From contig CAMWTJ010000009.1 of NCBI GenBank assembly GCA_947177185.1, positions 1 to 64,000 of the forward strand: a stretch of 64,000 bases of DNA. The letters run 5' to 3'. The notes under the pieces were generated by a model. It was not told the DNA's origin. It did no database searches and worked only from the letters and a program-made list of their open reading frames with translations. Shown here piece by piece: positions 7,497-54,371 of this stretch. The stretch is from an uncultured Porphyromonadaceae bacterium (GTDB lineage: Bacteria; Bacteroidota; Bacteroidia; Bacteroidales; Muribaculaceae). Numbering within the stretch: the stretch's first letter is position 1; every line of letters begins with the position of its first letter. The position numbers were made by a program, and so were the translations under genes.

Positions 7497-8879
7497 TTAT
7501 CGTCCGCCTCCGAGAGCCTGATAAAGGTTCACCACAGCCTGTGCCTGTGCGAGGCGGCTGCTTATGGCGTTCATCTGCGTCTGCAGAAGGTTGCTCTGCG
7601 CGGTGAGCACATCGAGATAGGTGGTGCCGGGCTGATTGTAGCGCAGGAGGTCGAGAGAATACTCGGCAGCCTTGGACAGATTGTCGACCTGCTGCTCAAG
7701 ATACTGCTCCTTTTCGGCACTCTTGGCATACACCACCAGTGCGTCGCTCACCTCAGCGGCTGCATTCATCAAGCTGTACTCGAAATTGTTCATAGCCTGC
7801 TTCTGTTGAGCCTTGGCGGCCTGCAGACGCGCTATGTTCTGTCCGCGCGAGAAAATCGGAGCCACGAGCGAGCCCGCGAGCTGATAGAACCAGTCGCCGG
7901 GATTCTTGACAAAGCTGCCGAGCAGATTGGTGAAGCCGCCGGCCACATTGATTGTAAGCCCCGGATAGAAGGCCGCACGTGCGGAAGATGTGGCATAGTA
8001 TGCCACGGCGAGCTGATGCTCGGCAGCCTCCACGTCGGGACGCCACGCAAGCTGGTTCATGGGTATGCCGTCGATGGGATTGAAGCCCACACGGAGCTCG
8101 AGCGCGTCGGATGTGGCGAGCTCTGTACCCGGCATCTCGTTGAGCAGGAGTGCAAACGTGTTGTTAAGGTTGTCGACAGCCTGCTCAAGGTCGGTGATAG
8201 TGGCGAGTATGCCATAGTACTGAGCGCGGCTCTGCACCACGGCTGCCTCCGTCACATTGCCCACGAGTTTGAAATCCTCCATGGTGCTCACGGTCTGCTT
8301 CCACACCTCGGCGGTGCGGCGTGCCAGGGTGAGCTGTGCGCGTGTGGCCGTAAGTCCGTAGTAGGTGTTGGCCACAGCGGCTATGATCTGCGACCGTGCC
8401 GCGCGCGCATAGGCCTCGCTGAGATAGAAGCTCTCCTTAGCTCCGCGGTTGCTGTTGAGCAGCTTTCCGAAGATATCTATCTCCCAGCTGAGCTGCGCGG
8501 GCAGCTGATACGTCCAGTTGATATCGCTGCCGGCATAGCTCGCACCGGCACCGTTGGGAGCCAGCGAGAGCGACGGCAGGTAGCTCAGCCTTGCGCCCTT
8601 GAGCTGCGCGCGCGCTATATCCACGTTGAGCATAGCGTTGCGCAGGCTGGTGTTGTTGGTGAGCGCTCGGTTTATGTAGTCGGCCAGCAGCGGGTCCACA
8701 AACACGTCCTCCCACAGATAATTGCCCAGCGAGGTGCTGTCGGGAGTCTGCTTCCTGGCCTCGGCATACGCTGCCGTGAGCGGCGTATCGGTGGGCGTTT
8801 CGTATTTCTTGTAAATGCCGCAGCCGGAGGTGGCGACGAGCATCACCGCTATGGCTGCAAGCTTTGTTGTATTGTTCAT
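7497..8879 (-). CDS. Outer-membrane efflux lipoprotein (TolC/OprM family)
   Basis: Outer-membrane channel of a tripartite RND pump. Signal peptide with lipobox ending ATSGC puts the lipidated cysteine at residue 20. The remaining 440 residues show the two outer-membrane efflux protein repeats, including WEIDIFGKL (about 129-137), the mid-protein signature IPMNQLAWRPDVEAAEHQLA, and the second-repeat segment ending YLDVLTAQSNLL. It ends LYQALGGGR, the usual family C-terminus. It starts 6 bases after the permease gene. The 460-residue length is a useful standard for the fused copy at 53 kb. Confidence 0.93.
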   Translation of the reverse strand: MNNTTKLAAIAVMLVATSGCGIYKKYETPTDTPLTAAYAEARKQTPDSTSLGNYLWEDVFVDPLLADYINRALTNNTSLRNAMLNVDIARAQLKGARLSYLPSLSLAPNGAGASYAGSDINWTYQLPAQLSWEIDIFGKLLNSNRGAKESFYLSEAYARAARSQIIAAVANTYYGLTATRAQLTLARRTAEVWKQTVSTMEDFKLVGNVTEAAVVQSRAQYYGILATITDLEQAVDNLNNTFALLLNEMPGTELATSDALELRVGFNPIDGIPMNQLAWRPDVEAAEHQLAVAYYATSSARAAFYPGLTINVAGGFTNLLGSFVKNPGDWFYQLAGSLVAPIFSRGQNIARLQAAKAQQKQAMNNFEYSLMNAAAEVSDALVVYAKSAEKEQYLEQQVDNLSKAAEYSLDLLRYNQPGTTYLDVLTAQSNLLQTQMNAISSRLAQAQAVVNLYQALGGGR

Positions 8880-8885
8880 AATGGT

Positions 8886-11800
8886 CTATTTACGGGCGTA
8901 CTGTTCAATTTCGTTTTCAATATTGCCGCCGGGTTCTTCGTCGCGCCATTCTATGGGCTTGATTTTCTCCTGAATCTTCTGGAACACCACGAAGAGCGCG
9001 GGCACCACGAGCACCTGAAGCACCATGCCTATGAGCATACCGCCCACGGAGCCCGTGCCGAGCGCGCGGTTGCCGTTGGCGCCTACACCGCTGGCAAACA
9101 TCATGGGCAGCAGACCGATCACCATGGCGAGCGACGTCATGAGGATAGGACGCAGACGCGCTGCCGCGCCGGCTATGGCGGCATTGGTGATGCTCATGCC
9201 GGTCATGCGGCGTTCGAGAGCGAACTCCACGATGAGAATCGCGTTCTTGGCCAGAAGACCGATAAGCATGATAAGCGCAATCTGCAGATAGATATTGTTG
9301 GAGATTTCGAAAATGCCGGCGAAGATGAACGCACCCATCAGACCGAAGGGTATCGACAATATCACCGCGAAGGGCAGAGCGTAGCTTTCGTACTGTGCCG
9401 AAAGAAGCAGATACACAAACAGCAGACAGAGGCCGAAAATCATGGCTGTAGCGTTGCCGCTCGAAGAGCCGGCCTCTTCACGCGTCATGCCCGCATATTC
9501 GTAGCCGTAGCCCTGAGGCAGTGTTTCCGCTGCCACGCGCTCGATTGCCGCGATAGCGTCGCCCGACGAATAGCCGGCGGCAGGCTGACCTGTCACGCTG
9601 ATGCTGGTGAACATATTGAAACGGTTGAGCAAGTCGGGGCCGTAGATGCGCGTGAGCTTGACAAAGTTGGCCACAGGAGCCATTTCGGCACCGCTGCGCA
9701 CCTTGATGCTGTTGAGGGTTTCAAGATTCACACGCGCTTCGGGAGAAGCCTGCATCATTACGCGGTAGATTTTGCCGAAGCGGTTGAAGTTGCTGACGTA
9801 CATACCGCCATAGTAGCCCTGAAGCGTGCTGAGGATTGTAGACGGACTGATACCGGCCTGCTTGCACTTGGCAGCATCGATATCAATCATGTACTGCGGG
9901 AACGTGGGGTTGAACGTGGTGTATGCAGCCTGGATTTCGGGCTGAGCGTTGAGCTGCGCGAGAAATCCCTGCACTACTCCGAAGAACTGGTTGATATCGC
10001 CGCCAGTCTTGTCCTGCATCTTTATCTCAAAGCCGTTTGTGGCAGAGTAGCCGGAAATCATGGGCGGGGCGAAAATCATGACGCGTCCGTCCTTGATGGC
10101 CTGCCCGGTGAGTCCGTACAGCTGGCGTATGATGTTGTCGGAGCTTTCTTCTTTCGAACGTTCGCTCCAGTTGCGGAGCTTGACAATGAAGGTGCCGTAC
10201 GTGGCGCCCTGACCTGCCAGGAAGCTATAGCCGGCAATCATTTCGCGGTTTTCGATGGCGGGGATGCCGGCCATGAGGCCGTCCACCTGCTCAAGCACCT
10301 CAATGGTGCGTTCCTGCGAGGTGCCCGCGGGCATATCCACCATCACGAAGATGGTGCCGGTGTCCTCGTTGGGCACGAGGGCCGAAGGTGTGATGCTCAT
10401 GAGCCATACCAGCACGACTATGCTGACTATCACACTGCCGAAAGCCGTGATTTTGTGGGCGCAGAAGAATTTCACGAGCTTCTTGTACTGCGTGAGCAGC
10501 GAGTTGTAGCCCTTTTCAAAACCGGCATGGAAACGCGGAGAGAAAATACCCATCACGGCCACCACGGCACAGAAAATACCTATGGCAAGCATCAGCGGAC
10601 GCTCGGTGGTAAAGGCGCCGAAAATCATCAGCAGTATGGATGCCACCACGAACACCGATGTAATGAGAGGATGGATATTGAGAGTGAAACGGCGGCGGTA
10701 GTTGCCTCCTACGGTGGCGGCAGCCTCCTTGACGGCTTCGCCCACGCGCTCTTTAAGAGTGGTATTGCTGTTGTGCGGCTTGAGGAACACTGCGCACAGT
10801 GCGGGAGAAAGCGTGAGCGCGTTGACAGCCGAGAAACCGATGGCCACGGCCATCGTGATACCGAACTGCTGATAGAACACGCCGCTGGTGCCGGGCATGA
10901 ACGACACGGGGATAAACACAAGCATCATCACAAGCGTGATGGAGATAAGCGCGCCGGCTATCTCGTTCATGGCGTCGATGGAGGCGCGGCGCGCGCTGCG
11001 GTAGCCCTGGTCGAGCTTGGCATGCACGGCCTCCACCACCACTATGGCGTCGTCGACCACAATCGCAATCGCAAGCACAAGCGCCGACAGAGTGATAAGG
11101 TTGAGCGAGAAGCCTATGAGTTTAAGCACGAAGAACGTGCCCACAAGAGCCACGGGGATGGCGATGGCGGGAATAATGGTGCTTCGGAAATCCTGCAGGA
11201 AGATGTAGACCACGACAAACACCAGCACGAACGCCTCGATAAGCGTATGGAGCACGTTCTCGATGGATGCGTACAGGAAGTCGTTGTTGTTCATCGGCAC
11301 CTCCATGGTGAGGCCCTTGGGCAGGTCGGTCTTCATCTTGTCCACCACCTGCAGACAGTCTTCGATAATCTGCGTGGCATTTGAGCCGGGGCTCTGGAAC
11401 ACGATGGCCATGGTGGCCAGATGGCCGTTGGCAAGGTTGGCGAATCCGTAGGTCACACGGCCGAGTTCTATCTCGGCCACATCCTTGAGTCGGAGCACCT
11501 CGCCGTTGCTGCCGGCGCGCACCACGATGTCGCCGAACTCCTCAGGCGTCACTTTACGTCCGCGGTAGCGCATGGTGTACTGGAAGCTCTGGTCGCCCTG
11601 CTCGCCGAACGCACCGGGAGCAGCCTCGACGTTCTGTTCGGCCAAAGCGGCGGCCACATCGGAAGGCATGAGGTTGTACTGCGCCATCACATCAGGCTTG
11701 AGCCATATGCGCATGGAGTAGTCGGCGCCGAAGCTCATCACATCACCCACGCCGCTGACACGCTGCAGCTCGGGAATGATATTGATTTTCATATAGTTGT

Positions 11801-12266
11801 CCAGGAACTCAGCGTCGTAGGTGTCGGTCGTGTCCACGAGCGACACGCCCACGAGCATCGACGTCTGGCGTTTCTGAGTCAGCACACCCACCTGATTCAC
11901 TTCGGAGGGCAGCAGGTTGGCAGCCTTTGCCACGCGGTTCTGCACGTCGACGGCGGCCATGTCGGGATTGAATCCCTGACGGAAATACACATTGATGGTG
12001 GCGGAGCCGGTGTTGGTGGCTGTCGACTCCATGTATGTCATGCCTTCGGCACCGTTGATTGACTCCTCGAGGGGGGCAATTACGGAGTTGAGCACTGCCT
12101 GTGCGTTGGCACCAGTATAGGTGGTGGTCACGGAAATCGTAGGCGGCGCTATGTCAGGAAACTGCGTGATAGGCAGCGATGCCAGGCCGATGATACCGAG
12201 GAGGACGATGAATATCGAAATCACCGTCGACAGCACCGGGCGGTTAATAAACGTATCTAATTTCAT
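8886..12266 (-). CDS. RND multidrug efflux permease (AcrB/HAE1 type)
   Basis: Proton-driven inner-membrane exporter of drugs or other hydrophobic compounds. N-terminus MKLDTFINRPVLSTVISIFI is typical, proton-relay D405/D406 lie in IVVDDAIVVVE, and GLLAKNAILIVEF carries the partner lysine of AcrB K940. At 1126 residues it is about 80 longer than AcrB. The excess lies mainly between residues 500 and 583, where two additional hydrophobic stretches (533-551 and 558-575) are inserted before the second half. It sits between adaptor and outer-membrane genes, 39 bases after the adaptor. Confidence 0.96.
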   Translation of the reverse strand: MKLDTFINRPVLSTVISIFIVLLGIIGLASLPITQFPDIAPPTISVTTTYTGANAQAVLNSVIAPLEESINGAEGMTYMESTATNTGSATINVYFRQGFNPDMAAVDVQNRVAKAANLLPSEVNQVGVLTQKRQTSMLVGVSLVDTTDTYDAEFLDNYMKINIIPELQRVSGVGDVMSFGADYSMRIWLKPDVMAQYNLMPSDVAAALAEQNVEAAPGAFGEQGDQSFQYTMRYRGRKVTPEEFGDIVVRAGSNGEVLRLKDVAEIELGRVTYGFANLANGHLATMAIVFQSPGSNATQIIEDCLQVVDKMKTDLPKGLTMEVPMNNNDFLYASIENVLHTLIEAFVLVFVVVYIFLQDFRSTIIPAIAIPVALVGTFFVLKLIGFSLNLITLSALVLAIAIVVDDAIVVVEAVHAKLDQGYRSARRASIDAMNEIAGALISITLVMMLVFIPVSFMPGTSGVFYQQFGITMAVAIGFSAVNALTLSPALCAVFLKPHNSNTTLKERVGEAVKEAAATVGGNYRRRFTLNIHPLITSVFVVASILLMIFGAFTTERPLMLAIGIFCAVVAVMGIFSPRFHAGFEKGYNSLLTQYKKLVKFFCAHKITAFGSVIVSIVVLVWLMSITPSALVPNEDTGTIFVMVDMPAGTSQERTIEVLEQVDGLMAGIPAIENREMIAGYSFLAGQGATYGTFIVKLRNWSERSKEESSDNIIRQLYGLTGQAIKDGRVMIFAPPMISGYSATNGFEIKMQDKTGGDINQFFGVVQGFLAQLNAQPEIQAAYTTFNPTFPQYMIDIDAAKCKQAGISPSTILSTLQGYYGGMYVSNFNRFGKIYRVMMQASPEARVNLETLNSIKVRSGAEMAPVANFVKLTRIYGPDLLNRFNMFTSISVTGQPAAGYSSGDAIAAIERVAAETLPQGYGYEYAGMTREEAGSSSGNATAMIFGLCLLFVYLLLSAQYESYALPFAVILSIPFGLMGAFIFAGIFEISNNIYLQIALIMLIGLLAKNAILIVEFALERRMTGMSITNAAIAGAAARLRPILMTSLAMVIGLLPMMFASGVGANGNRALGTGSVGGMLIGMVLQVLVVPALFVVFQKIQEKIKPIEWRDEEPGGNIENEIEQYARK

Positions 12267-48704: not shown

Positions 48705-49874
48705 ATGTCACAATTCACAGCTATCTTTCGCAAAATAAGCGTTATGGGCTGGATAGCCATAGCCGTTTTGATCGCCGCCGCAGTGTGGTTGTGCGTATCA
48801 CTGTACCGCCCCAAGACCAAACCGGCCGAGCTGCCCGTGGTGGCCGTAGAGCCCGTCACGCGGCAGGACGTCAACATCTACGGCGAATTCGCCGGACGCA
48901 TACGCGCCCAGCAGTTCGTGGAGGTACACGCGCGCGTGGAAGGCTATCTGCAGAGCATGAAATTCAAAGAAGGAAGCTATGTGGACAAAGGCGACCTGCT
49001 CTTCACAATCGACCCCACCGTGTACAGCGCCAATGCCGAAAAAGCACGCGCCACACTCGAGAAAGCACGCGCCGTGGCCCTGAAAGCCGAGCGCGACCTT
49101 AGCCGCATACGCCCGCTGTTCGCTCAAAACGCCGCTTCGCAGCTCGACCTCGACAACGCCGTCGCAGCCTACGAGAGCGCCAAAGCCGAAGTGAGCGTGG
49201 CGGAAGCCGACCTCAAGCAGGCCACACAGACCCTCAGCTACACACGCGTCACAGCCCCCACATCAGGCTACATATCCGAAACGGGAGCCGACATAGGCAC
49301 ACTCGTGGGCCCGGGCGCCAAATCGCTGCTCGCCACCATAGTGAAGAGCGACACCGTGCGCATCGACTTCTCCATGACCGCTCTCGACTATCTGCGCAGC
49401 AAGGAGCGCAACGTGAGCCTCGGCCACGACGACGAACACCGCGGATGGAACCCCTACGTGACGGTGACACTGGCCGACGGCACCGTGTATCCGCATCGCG
49501 GACTGCTCGATTTCGCGTCGCCGCAGGTCGACTCGAAGACCGGCACTTTCAGCGTGCGCGCCGAAATGCCCAACCCCGAACGCGCACTGCTGCCGGGCGA
49601 GTTCACAAAAGTGAAGCTGCTCATGGACGTGCGCGCCGACGCCATAGAGATTCCTGCGAAATCCGTGGTGGTGGAAAAAGGCGCGGCGTTCGTCTACGTG
49701 GTGCTGCCCGACAGCTTCGTCGAGAAACGCTTTATCGAAACCGGCCCCGAAGTAGGCAACAACATGATAGTGGAACGCGGCCTCAACTCCGGCGAGAACA
49801 TCGTGACTGAAGGCTACCACAAGCTGCGCCACGGCATGAAAGTGCGCCCCGTATTGTCCGACTCCATCAGATAA
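48705..49874 (+). CDS. RND efflux periplasmic adaptor, membrane-anchored
   Basis: Membrane-fusion protein of the second RND pump, 389 residues. Unlike the adaptor at 12.3 kb it has no lipobox: an N-terminal helix (about 15-34, GWIAIAVLIAAAVWLCVSLY) anchors it in the inner membrane. VEVHARVEGYLQSMKFKEGS (lipoyl half), an Ala/Glu-rich hairpin (about 100-165), VTAPTSGYISETGADIGTLV (second lipoyl half) and a beta-barrel follow. It starts an operon with the fused permease/outer-membrane gene 12 bases downstream. Substrate unknown. Confidence 0.93.
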   Translation: MSQFTAIFRKISVMGWIAIAVLIAAAVWLCVSLYRPKTKPAELPVVAVEPVTRQDVNIYGEFAGRIRAQQFVEVHARVEGYLQSMKFKEGSYVDKGDLLFTIDPTVYSANAEKARATLEKARAVALKAERDLSRIRPLFAQNAASQLDLDNAVAAYESAKAEVSVAEADLKQATQTLSYTRVTAPTSGYISETGADIGTLVGPGAKSLLATIVKSDTVRIDFSMTALDYLRSKERNVSLGHDDEHRGWNPYVTVTLADGTVYPHRGLLDFASPQVDSKTGTFSVRAEMPNPERALLPGEFTKVKLLMDVRADAIEIPAKSVVVEKGAAFVYVVLPDSFVEKRFIETGPEVGNNMIVERGLNSGENIVTEGYHKLRHGMKVRPVLSDSIR

Positions 49875-49886
49875 ATCCACGCGGCT

Positions 49887-52800
49887 ATGAAACGCAATTT
49901 CTTCCTCGACCACCCGGTGTTCTCTATCGTGATGTCGATAGTGATTGTCCTGCTGGGCTGCATAGGCCTGGTGATGCTGCCGGTGGACCAGTACCCCAAT
50001 ATAGTGCCGCCGGTGGTGCGTGTTTCGGCATCCTACCCCGGCGCCGACGCCATGACCGTGACACAGGCCGTGGCCACCCCCATAGAGCAGGAGCTCAACG
50101 GCACTCCCGGCATGCTCTACATGGACAGCAAGAGCAGCAACAGCGGAGGCTTCACGGCCTACGTGACGTTTGACATCGATGTAGACCCCGAACTCGCCGC
50201 CGTCGACGTGCAAAACCGCATCAAGAAAGCTGAGGCAAGGCTTCCGGCCGAAGTGGTGCAGAACGGTATAGCTGTGGAAAAAGAAACAGCCAACCGCCTT
50301 ATGACCATAACCGTGCTGTCGCTCGACACAAAGTTCGACGAAGTTTATCTGAGCAACTACGTCACACTCAACGTGCTCGACCTGCTGCGCCGCGTGCCGG
50401 GCGTAGGCTCCATCAGCAATGTGGGCGGACGCTACTACTCCATGCAGATACACGTGATGCCCGACAAGCTCGCCGACCTCGGCATCACGGTGGCCGACCT
50501 CCGGCGCGCCCTTCTGGACCAGAACCGCGAATCGGCCGCCGGCGTGCTCGGCCAGGCTCCCATGACCGATATCGACATCACCATGCCCATCATAGCGCGC
50601 GGACGCCTGTCGTCGCCGGAGGAATTCGGCCAGATAGTGCTCCGTGCCAATGCCGACGGCTCCGTGATCCGACTGCGCGACGTGGCCCGCATCAGCCTTG
50701 ACGCGCAGAGCTACGCCACCGAAAGCGGAATCAACCGCGGCAACGCCGCCGTGCTCAACATCAACATGCTTCCGGGAGCCAACGCCCTCGAAGTGGCCGA
50801 AAACGTCAAAAAGGCCATGAAAGAAATCAGCCGCAGCTTCCCCGACGGCATGTCGTACGTGATACCGTTCGACATGACGGAGTACATCTCCGACTCCATA
50901 CACCACGTGTACCGCACGTTCTTCGAAGCGCTGCTTATAGTGATACTCGTGGTGTTCCTGTCGCTGCAGAACTGGCGCGCCACGCTCATACCCATCATAG
51001 CCGTGCCCATATCGCTCATAGGCACGTTCGGAGTGATGCTCGTGTTCGGCTTCTCGCTCAACATGCTCACCCTGCTGGGCCTTATCCTCGCCATAGGCAT
51101 CGTCGTGGACGACGCCATCGTGGTGGTGGAAAACGTGGACCGCATCATGGAAAGCGAGCACGTGGAGCCGCAGGAAGCCACCAGGCGGGCCATGAGCGGC
51201 CTCGGCTCGGCGCTGATAGCCATGAGCCTTGTGCTGTGTGCGGTGTTTGTGCCCGTAAGTTTCCTCCCGGGCATCACCGGGCAGCTGTACCGCCAGTTCA
51301 CAATCACCATCGCAGTGTCGGTAATCATATCCACGGTGGTGGCCCTCACGCTCTCGCCCGTGATGTGCGCCGCGCTGCTGCGTCCGGCCACGCGCCGCAA
51401 AAAAGCACGCGTGTTCCGCCTCATAAACTACTGGCTCGCACGCGGCAACAATTTCTACTGCCGCATGATTCGCCGCGCGCTGGGCGTGCCGCGACGCATG
51501 CTTGCGGCCTTCGGCATAGTGCTCGCCCTCATATGGGTGCTCAACCGCTTTGTGCCCACGAGCTTCATGAGCGCCGAGGACCAGGGCTACTTCACCGTGG
51601 AGCTGGAACTCCCGGAAGGCTCCACCATAGAGCGCACGCGTGCGGTGACCGACCGCGCCATGCAATTTCTCATGGCCGACCGCGACGTGGAGTATGTGCT
51701 CAACGTCACCGGCTCCTCGCCGCGCACCGGCACCAACCAGGCGCACGCCACACTCACCGTGATACTGAAGCCGTCGGGCGAGCGCGGTTCCAACTCGCTG
51801 GCCGAGGTGCGCGAGCGCGCGCTTGCCGAGTTCGCCACCTACCCCGAGAGCAAGGCCTATGTGTTCACGCCTGCCATCATCCCCGGCCTGGGCACCTCAG
51901 GCGGTTTCGAAATGGTGCTCGAAGCCCGCGGCGACGCCACGTACGACGACCTCGCACGCGCCGTGGACACGCTGCGCCACTACGCCGCCGACTACCCCGC
52001 GCTGTCGGCGCTGTCCACATCCATGCAGGAGGATATCCCGCAGTTGTTTTTCGATGTCGACCGCGACCGCGCTCAGCAGCTCGGCATACCCGTAAGCGAC
52101 GTGTTCTCGACCATGAAGGCCTTCACCGGCTCGGTCTACGTCAACGATTTCAATATGTTCAACCGCATATACCGCGTGTATGTGCAGGCCGACGCGCAAT
52201 ACCGCGCCCACCGCGACAACCTCAACCTGTTTTACCTGCGCAGCGGCTCGGGAGTGATGGTGCCCGTCACCTCGCTGGGCAAGACGCACTACACCACCGG
52301 CCCGGGCACCATCGGGCGCTTCAACATGTTCAACTCCGCCACCATCTCGGGCGAGGCGTCGCCCGGCTACAGCACCGGCGAGGCCATGGCCGCGCTCGAC
52401 GAAATAGTGGAAAAGCATCTGCCCGACAACATAGGCGTGGAATGGAGCGGACTCAGCTATCAGCAGCGCCACGAAACGGCCAACACGGGACTCGTGCTCG
52501 GACTTGCGTTCCTGTTTGTGTTCCTGGTGCTCGCGGCGCAGTACGAAAGCTGGACCATCCCCATGGCCGTGATACTCTCGCTGCCCATCGCCGGCCTCGG
52601 AGCATATCTCGGCATATGGGTGTGCGGCCTTGAAAACAACGTATATTTCCAGATCGGACTCGTGATGCTCGTGGGACTCGTGGCCAAGAACGCCATCCTC
52701 ATTGTGGAATTCGCGTCGGAAGAAACCGCCAAAGGCGTCGACGCCGCCCACGCCGCCCTGACAGCCGCGCGCCTGCGTTTCAGACCTATCGTGATGACCT

Positions 52801-54371
52801 CGCTGGCGTTCACTCTCGGCCTGCTGCCGCTGGTGTTTGCCTCCGGCCCCGGCTCGGCAGCCCGCCGCGACATAGGCACAGGCGTGTTCTTCGGCATGCT
52901 CGTGGCCATCACTGTGGGCATAGTCTACGTGCCGTTCTTCTTCGTAATGATCAACAAAGCCATGGCACGCATCCGCCGCCGCAAGGCATCGCACATAGCC
53001 GCCGTGGTCGCTATAGCCGTAGCCGCATCTGGCATGAGCTCATGCTCGGGTGTGCGCGGGCTGCAACAGCCCGAGCTCGAGCTGCCGGCCGCAGTGGTGC
53101 CGGGCACCGACATACCGTCGGACTCCTTGACCATGGCCGACCTTGAGTGGTGGCGCGTGTACACCGACGTGGACCTCACCGCCATAATCACCGAAACCCT
53201 CGACCACAACCGCGACCTGGCCGCAGCCATGGCGCGAGTGCGCGAGGCACGGCACATCTACGGTGTGGCCGCACGCAACCTCACACCCACCGTGAGCGGG
53301 CTCGTGGGCGGCAACTACGAAACCAACGACTATAGCGACAAAGCAAAGCTGCGCGACCCGGAGTACGACATCAAAGCCACCGTGGCCTGGGAGATAGACC
53401 TGCTCGGCGGCCAGAAATGGGAGCGCCGCGGCGCACTCGCGGCCTACGAGGCGTCGGTGATGGACGAGCGCGCCGCACGCATGACCCTCATAGCCGAAGC
53501 CGTCACGCTATACTACCGGCTGGTAGCCCTCGACAACGAGCTCGAAATCGTGCGGCGCACCCTCGGCACGCGTGAGGAAAGCGTGCGCATGGCCAAACTG
53601 CGCTTCGAAGGCGGACTCACTCACGAAACGCCCTACCGCCAGGCGCAGGTGGAACTTGCCACCACAGCCGCTCTGGTGCCGGGCCTCGAAAGCCGCATAC
53701 GCGCCACGCAGAACGCCCTCACGCTGCTCATGGGCCGCTTCCCGGCAGAGTACATCGAGCGCGGCAAGCTGCAGCTCAAGGCGCTCGACGAGGCAAGCAT
53801 GCCCATGGGACTGCCATCAACTCTCCTCGAGCGGCGCCCCGACGTGATGGCAGCCGAACAGCGCCTGAAAAGCGCGCTCGCCAACGTGGGCGTGAGCTAC
53901 GCCAACTGCTTCCCGAGGCTGCGCATCGGTGTCACCGTAGGATGGGAAAACGACGACATCGCCGGGCTCCTGCGCTCGCCGTTCACCTACACCGTGGGCA
54001 ATATCGTGGGCACCATACTCGATTTCGGACGCAACAAACGCCGCTACAAGGCTTCCATCGCCGCCTACGACCGCGCACGCGCCACCTACGAGCAGGCCGT
54101 GCTCTCGGCGTTCCGCGACGTGAGCGACGCCGCCACCGCGCTCCACAAGGCCGCCCAGACCGTCGACCTGCGGCGCGACCTGCGCGACGCCGCACTCAAA
54201 TACGTCGAGCTGGCACATATACAGTACCGCGCCGGCACACTCAACTACATCGACGTGCTCGACGCCCAACGGCGCTATTTCGACTCGCAGATAGGCCTGA
54301 GCAACGCCGTGCGCGACCAATATCTCGCCCTGGCCGCACTCTACAAATCGCTCGGCGGCGGATGGCAGTGA
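49887..54371 (+). CDS. RND permease fused in frame to an outer-membrane efflux lipoprotein
   Basis: A single uninterrupted 1494-residue frame. Residues 1 to about 1035 are an AcrB/HAE1 permease: proton-relay D408/D409 in IVVDDAIVVVENV and GLVAKNAILIVEF. The chain then reads MARIRRRKASHIAAVVAIAV and ASGMSSC, a complete type II signal peptide (Met1026, basic start, hydrophobic core, Cys1053). Residues 1053-1494 are a TolC/OprM-type channel: WEIDLLGGQKWERRG, LLERRPDVMAAEQRLKSALA, LNYIDVLDAQRRYF, and end LGGGW. Either the polyprotein is cut by signal peptidase II, or the channel is made from the internal ATG at 52962 (469 residues, like the 460-residue copy at 7.5 kb). No stop separates the parts. 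Confidence 0.93.
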   Translation: MKRNFFLDHPVFSIVMSIVIVLLGCIGLVMLPVDQYPNIVPPVVRVSASYPGADAMTVTQAVATPIEQELNGTPGMLYMDSKSSNSGGFTAYVTFDIDVDPELAAVDVQNRIKKAEARLPAEVVQNGIAVEKETANRLMTITVLSLDTKFDEVYLSNYVTLNVLDLLRRVPGVGSISNVGGRYYSMQIHVMPDKLADLGITVADLRRALLDQNRESAAGVLGQAPMTDIDITMPIIARGRLSSPEEFGQIVLRANADGSVIRLRDVARISLDAQSYATESGINRGNAAVLNINMLPGANALEVAENVKKAMKEISRSFPDGMSYVIPFDMTEYISDSIHHVYRTFFEALLIVILVVFLSLQNWRATLIPIIAVPISLIGTFGVMLVFGFSLNMLTLLGLILAIGIVVDDAIVVVENVDRIMESEHVEPQEATRRAMSGLGSALIAMSLVLCAVFVPVSFLPGITGQLYRQFTITIAVSVIISTVVALTLSPVMCAALLRPATRRKKARVFRLINYWLARGNNFYCRMIRRALGVPRRMLAAFGIVLALIWVLNRFVPTSFMSAEDQGYFTVELELPEGSTIERTRAVTDRAMQFLMADRDVEYVLNVTGSSPRTGTNQAHATLTVILKPSGERGSNSLAEVRERALAEFATYPESKAYVFTPAIIPGLGTSGGFEMVLEARGDATYDDLARAVDTLRHYAADYPALSALSTSMQEDIPQLFFDVDRDRAQQLGIPVSDVFSTMKAFTGSVYVNDFNMFNRIYRVYVQADAQYRAHRDNLNLFYLRSGSGVMVPVTSLGKTHYTTGPGTIGRFNMFNSATISGEASPGYSTGEAMAALDEIVEKHLPDNIGVEWSGLSYQQRHETANTGLVLGLAFLFVFLVLAAQYESWTIPMAVILSLPIAGLGAYLGIWVCGLENNVYFQIGLVMLVGLVAKNAILIVEFASEETAKGVDAAHAALTAARLRFRPIVMTSLAFTLGLLPLVFASGPGSAARRDIGTGVFFGMLVAITVGIVYVPFFFVMINKAMARIRRRKASHIAAVVAIAVAASGMSSCSGVRGLQQPELELPAAVVPGTDIPSDSLTMADLEWWRVYTDVDLTAIITETLDHNRDLAAAMARVREARHIYGVAARNLTPTVSGLVGGNYETNDYSDKAKLRDPEYDIKATVAWEIDLLGGQKWERRGALAAYEASVMDERAARMTLIAEAVTLYYRLVALDNELEIVRRTLGTREESVRMAKLRFEGGLTHETPYRQAQVELATTAALVPGLESRIRATQNALTLLMGRFPAEYIERGKLQLKALDEASMPMGLPSTLLERRPDVMAAEQRLKSALANVGVSYANCFPRLRIGVTVGWENDDIAGLLRSPFTYTVGNIVGTILDFGRNKRRYKASIAAYDRARATYEQAVLSAFRDVSDAATALHKAAQTVDLRRDLRDAALKYVELAHIQYRAGTLNYIDVLDAQRRYFDSQIGLSNAVRDQYLALAALYKSLGGGWQ

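Follow-up and report, generated by a model that had tools for sequence, protein, structure and literature searches.

How might one reading frame supply two proteins that belong in two different membranes? The question is raised by a gene on the forward strand (49887..54371) of a 64,000-nucleotide stretch of DNA, here called the window, from an uncultured Porphyromonadaceae bacterium of the gut placed in the Muribaculaceae (GenBank assembly GCA_947177185.1, contig CAMWTJ010000009.1, positions 1 to 64,000). Its frame is open over 1494 codons (1494 amino acids) and runs from an AcrB-type permease of the HAE1 family of resistance-nodulation-division (RND) pumps through an internal signal segment into an outer-membrane channel. 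We incline to the view that Bacteroidales have repeatedly merged two packed pump genes into a polyprotein, and that proteolysis by signal peptidase II would replace translation initiation for the channel, giving it a fixed 1:1 supply.

The fused gene and its relatives

A first, sequence-only reading of the window had described a single frame joining a complete permease to a complete channel, and the open reading frame together with the Pfam and NCBIfam matches bears this out. The permease domain (residues 4-1022; 49896..52952, forward strand) matches Pfam ACR_tran over nearly the whole profile with 1049 bits (cut-off 28) and NCBIfam TIGR00915 at residues 4-1034 with 1119 bits (cut-off 940); it falls just short of the narrower model NF000282 (1229.8 vs 1250) and lies below the cut-off of TIGR00914, the model for heavy-metal RND permeases of the CusA/CzcA type (321 bits vs 701). 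The channel domain, of the NodT/OprM type (residues 1053-1494; 53043..54368, forward strand), matches TIGR01845 (outer_NodT) at residues 1045-1492 with 296.9 bits (cut-off 210), near-full length at profile positions 2-460 of 460, and Pfam OEP in two stretches, the better one at residues 1311-1490. Between the two domains lie the linker and internal signal segment (residues 1023-1052; 52953..53042, forward strand), in which a basic stretch, MARIRRRK, is followed by a hydrophobic core, and directly behind it stands the lipobox cysteine Cys1053 (53043..53045, forward strand). When the permease is mapped to AcrB by motif, D408, K934, R964 and T971 are invariant in 21 of 21 aligned fused proteins and D409 is kept in 19, the other two having N; we take these five to be the proton-relay residues of AcrB.

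The state of the locus, fused or separate, was judged from the DNA read at the permease-channel junction. Apparent single frames of 1530-1600 amino acids in a search of the phylum had been tried as a flag for fusion and were rejected, many of them having a stop between the two genes in the DNA. One search covered 61 genomes, the window's own included. It gave full-length single-frame matches in other genomes with 87%, 83%, 71% (two), 63% and 58% (two) identity and one further match with 64% identity that is cut by a contig end. At the junction, the DNA of some genomes proved to carry the fusion and that of others two genes; the latter genomes are of the same genus, and permease identity there is 74-81%.

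In a scan of named genomes the relatives fall in Bacteroidales. Among the 80 best-ranked named loci, a choice biased toward full-length matches and fusions, 43 are fused, including those of strains titled Parabacteroides gordonii, P. goldsteinii, P. faecis, P. faecalis, P. acidifaciens, Paraprevotella xylaniphila and Muribaculum sp. An289; a stop separates the genes in Bacteroides fragilis Q1F2 and Phocaeicola faecium. A less selected set, namely the part of the search matches whose DNA was fetched, contains 20 fusions among 147 orthologues. For the comparisons below we used 204 non-identical permease orthologues with at least 60% identity (56 fused, 146 separate, 2 unscored), which were left from 277 rows after removal of 48 below 60% permease identity, 2 too short and 23 duplicates; rows L035 and L052 have no channel and hence no lipobox scoring. 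The full-length matches at 87% and 83% identity in two genomes, together with the 56 non-identical fused orthologues, rule out chance and artefact: the fused gene is real. The other HAE1-TolC fusions that the sequence-only reading had proposed to seek in databases are thus present in many Bacteroidales genomes.

The fusion begins 12 bases behind the end of a gene for a periplasmic adaptor (membrane fusion protein) of 389 amino acids (48705..49874, forward strand; Pfam HlyD_D23, 59.1 bits vs cut-off 30), and the locus therefore encodes a full tripartite pump, with adaptor, permease and channel together in one operon. Of the 80 named loci, 78 have an adaptor ahead of the permease; the remaining two start at the permease.

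Origins of the fusion in Bacteroidales

On a permease tree of the 204 rows (FastTree) the label "fused" needs 10 changes, 9 of which are forced by branches with support of at least 95. The channel tree (197 rows; built with long-branch warnings for six long rows) needs 9 changes, 8 of them forced, and an IQ-TREE tree of 88 rows, hand-chosen to span every fused clade plus neighbours, needs 9, all forced by branches with support of at least 95. A single fused clade was rejected by the approximately unbiased test (p-AU 1.46e-93). Rooted at the midpoint, the permease tree has 10 clades made up of fused rows alone and the channel tree 9; in the latter the window's clade joins L013/L039 (support 87), from which it stands apart on the permease tree. 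Judged from these trees, the fusion arose repeatedly rather than as a single oddity. The 9-10 changes may include some losses; we infer that most were gains, because a loss would need both a new stop and a new start.

In the separate rows the two genes are tightly packed, the ATG of the channel overlapping the TGA of the permease in 98 of 146, and how near the two states lie to each other is seen in the sister pair L012, which is fused, and L025, which is separate. Three fused rows from the window's family (L044, L045 and L047, from genomes G123, G104 and G084) group in both trees, with their permeases as with their channels, with the fused rows of Parabacteroides, a grouping that suggests horizontal transfer of the fused gene.

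Outside the 204 rows, among those left out for permease identities under 60%, stand L079, L092 and L110, distant fusions of an HAE1 permease to a channel elsewhere in the phylum (37-42% permease identity), each with a lipobox-like cysteine; they are probably further origins of the fusion. A record titled Staphylococcus sp. (L277, a metagenome bin with a 2.6 Mb contig) also carries the operon, at 78% permease identity. In the compared part it is identical to L146 from the window's family, and the Staphylococcus label looks wrong.

From one reading frame to two proteins

We think it likely that the gene is translated into a single polyprotein and that signal peptidase II frees the channel by cutting at an internal signal that has been lipidated. 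Translation would begin at 49887, and the twelve helices of the permease would insert into the membrane with the C-terminus in the cytoplasm. Helix 12 of AcrB-type permeases leaves the C-terminus in the cytoplasm, which is also where a signal peptide starts. The basic stretch and the hydrophobic core would then insert like an ordinary signal peptide, N-in/C-out, taking the channel to the periplasm; Lgt would lipidate Cys1053, and signal peptidase II (LspA) would cleave the chain just ahead of it. The freed channel would travel to the outer membrane as a normal lipoprotein, the permease would retain the signal peptide as a thirteenth helix and, if cleavage occurs, synthesis of the two proteins would be fixed at 1:1. 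Since the C-terminus of the permease and the N-terminus of the signal share the cytoplasmic side, joining them would be topologically silent, which would explain the repeated origin from tightly packed genes. Joining adaptor and permease would break the topology, and in keeping with this no adaptor-permease fusion was found in the 125 of the 204 rows that have at least 100 codons of upstream DNA.

The evidence for this course comes from the linker and the cysteine. Cys1053 is invariant (zero entropy) in 36 of 36 aligned fused proteins, as it is in 21 of 21 in a smaller alignment; it is preceded by Ser in 35 of the 36, and all other columns from 1025 to 1061 vary by 1.2-3.1 bits. A lipobox-like cysteine was found in every one of 59 scored fused rows (the 56 orthologues plus the three distant fusions), at a distance from helix 12 of 28 to 62 codons. 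The sequence-only reading had already proposed the thirteenth helix and the release by signal peptidase II, and an invariant cysteine amid a varying linker supports both by comparison; insertion, lipidation, cleavage and 1:1 output themselves we infer.

The linker itself looks translated and constrained, because differences within its 30 codons fall mainly on third positions (42/28/126 at codon positions 1/2/3; 97 synonymous and 56 non-synonymous codons) in 11 pairs of close fused relatives, which were hand-picked and share some members. Among the separate rows 142 of 148 have an ATG 15-23 codons before the cysteine; among the fused rows only 13 of 59 do. In the stretch from helix 12 to 12 codons ahead of the cysteine, 23 of the 59 fused rows lack any in-frame ATG and 9 lack ATG, GTG and TTG alike, and the median best A-excess at a candidate start is 0.21 in fused vs 0.30 in separate rows (Mann-Whitney p = 4.5e-6, with related rows treated as independent). 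By these comparisons the start site of the separate genes is mostly gone in the fusions, about half of which keep a plausible one.

A type II signal peptide classically has a basic n-region, a hydrophobic core and the lipobox [LVI][ASTVI][GAS]C. In the window the basic stretch, the core and S-S-C are present, and both the ATG at 52962 and Cys1053 are placed as the sequence-only reading had them; "perfect", as the signal had been called there, overstates it, residues -3 to -1 being M-S-S. Met at -3 occurs in 8 of the 59 fused and in 10 of 148 separate relatives. A lipoprotein signal is by criterion N-terminal and that of the window is internal (residues 1026-1052 of 1494); it may work like an N-terminal one. 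At -1, Ser is found in 57 of 59 fused and 83 of 148 separate rows (the latter also with 35 Gly and 28 Ala), counts that still include clade effects.

Several points weigh against cleavage by signal peptidase II. The Met at -3 departs from the classical L, V or I; in the literature searched we found no precedent for LspA cutting a signal so deep in a polytopic protein; and part of the conservation of the cysteine is history, because it was inherited from separate lipoprotein channels. Moreover, the linker of 36 of the 59 fused rows contains an in-frame ATG; 30 rows offer a candidate start whose A-excess is at least 0.2 (separate rows, 138 of 148), and 28 combine an A-excess of at least 0.15 with weak local folding (separate rows, 136 of 148). 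With 28-30 of 59 fused rows keeping a plausible start, internal initiation may add to processing in about half of them.

Internal initiation as the whole explanation, which we regard as unlikely, would mean that ribosomes starting at the in-frame ATG of codon 1026 (52962..52964, forward strand) make the lipoprotein channel on its own, as happens in the unfused relatives, and that the long fusion is a by-product. This possible start exists in the window and in sister L010, and L012, the sister of the separate-gene row L025, keeps an ATG 16 codons before the cysteine in a strong A-rich context. The ATG is, however, unconserved, being absent from the 83%-identical fused sister L011; in the window its context is weak (A-excess 0.15, minimum free energy -6.5), and the 9 rows without any of the three start codons, a subset of the 23 without an ATG, are spread over at least five fused clades. 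The alternative of initiation at 52962, which the sequence-only reading had kept beside cleavage, is thereby weakened, yet a plausible A-rich candidate persists in the 28 rows. In the L014 clade several fused rows (e.g. L208-L211 and L248) have in common an A-rich in-frame ATG just past helix 12 and 27-37 codons ahead of the cysteine; it may be a real internal start there or a mere consequence of lysine codons.

Quite improbable in our judgement is a covalently linked pump, in which no cleavage takes place and the channel stays tethered to the permease via the thirteenth helix. The linker looks translated, and in a predicted model of residues 855-1494 (mean pLDDT, the predicted local distance difference test, 75) the permease half is followed by a short helix of low confidence at the signal, then by disorder and then by the channel; the stretch of low confidence that connects helix 12 to the channel could serve as the tether. 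The predicted channel fold of strands and long helices matches OprN, SilC and OprM (best match in the PDB OprN 5iuy, TM-score 0.77 by target length), and the model says nothing on cleavage. Against a tether speaks that the lipobox cysteine is invariant while the linker varies in length and sequence, and that in this channel family the N-terminus carries an acyl group and lies at the outer membrane. The OprM structure 4y1k is titled palmitoylated.

That signal peptidase I or some envelope protease makes the cut, the cysteine being kept for a different reason, is somewhat more doubtful still: any processing step would suffice and the window is without the classical residue at -3, but a lone invariant cysteine that directly follows a small residue where a hydrophobic core ends is typical of type II signals. 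Assembly error or a decaying gene, for which one could cite that the window's genome is a draft in 82 contigs, has next to no probability and is refuted as a general explanation, the fusion being carried by independent assemblies and named strains with both domains complete, the permease motif residues invariant and the linker evolving as coding sequence.

Neighbouring genes, related systems and meaning

Upstream of the window's operon lie clpB-ispE-grpE-dnaJ, and likewise at the closest fused sisters, L260 and L206 (in L206 visible from ispE on, where the contig begins). Elsewhere among the 80 named loci, many of whose contigs are short, the grpE-dnaJ upstream flank was not found; since in 25 of the 37 unfused ones the adaptor lies more than 5.5 kb into the locus, the flank could have shown there. 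In the Parabacteroides loci L242 and L244 GrpE and DnaJ are encoded downstream of the fusion. The sequence-only reading had said that it would be overturned by close relatives in which the same flanks enclose separate genes. Among the 80 loci this flank stands only beside fused genes. Relatives with separate genes would in any case tell which way the change went and leave the fusion itself standing.

A second pump in the same window had been pointed out as an internal comparison with permease and channel as separate genes, and so it is: its permease (8886-12266) and its channel (7497-8879) are separate open reading frames on the reverse strand. To this we add that the two share a frame and that six bases separate the TAG stop from the next ATG.

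Component by component, the window's locus is an ordinary HAE1 tripartite pump. It has the same three components in the same order as pumps of the MexAB-OprM or CmeABC type and differs from them in that permease and channel form one reading frame. Of the solved permease structures CmeB matches best, followed by others including MexB and AcrB, and the best 60 of 102 solved matches are chains of 1031-1069 residues aligned to the permease part only. The separate-gene orthologues of Bacteroidales (in Muribaculaceae, Bacteroides and Phocaeicola) share the operon order, 62-82% permease identity and a similar lipobox, and differ in the stop and start between permease and channel. CzcA/CusA-type permeases with a C-terminal TolC domain are known from Bacteroidota; they belong to the heavy-metal family, whereas the window's permease is of the HAE1 family. 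In one other RND family no frame of fusion length was found among the 38 genomes with a match (119 genomes searched).

A parallel for the proposed processing is FbcH, the cytochrome b/c1 precursor of Bradyrhizobium, a polytopic inner-membrane protein in which an internal signal peptide is cut to give two subunits. There signal peptidase I and a cytochrome are involved, in the window putatively signal peptidase II and an outer-membrane lipoprotein. The portions of the literature searched (including PMC8277102 and PMC13186574) contained no report of natural HAE1-channel fusions; there may be further papers, and the permease-channel architecture may already stand in domain databases without comment.

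If the proposed processing is true, the fused gene encodes a bacterial efflux-pump polyprotein, and signal peptidase II has to act on an internal signal behind a polytopic membrane protein. The 9-10 changes of state on the permease trees would be a repeated natural experiment on when packed genes fuse, and suggest the rule that fusion is free where the end of the first protein and the start of the second are both cytoplasmic. For annotation it would mean that one gene name stands for probably two proteins in two membranes.

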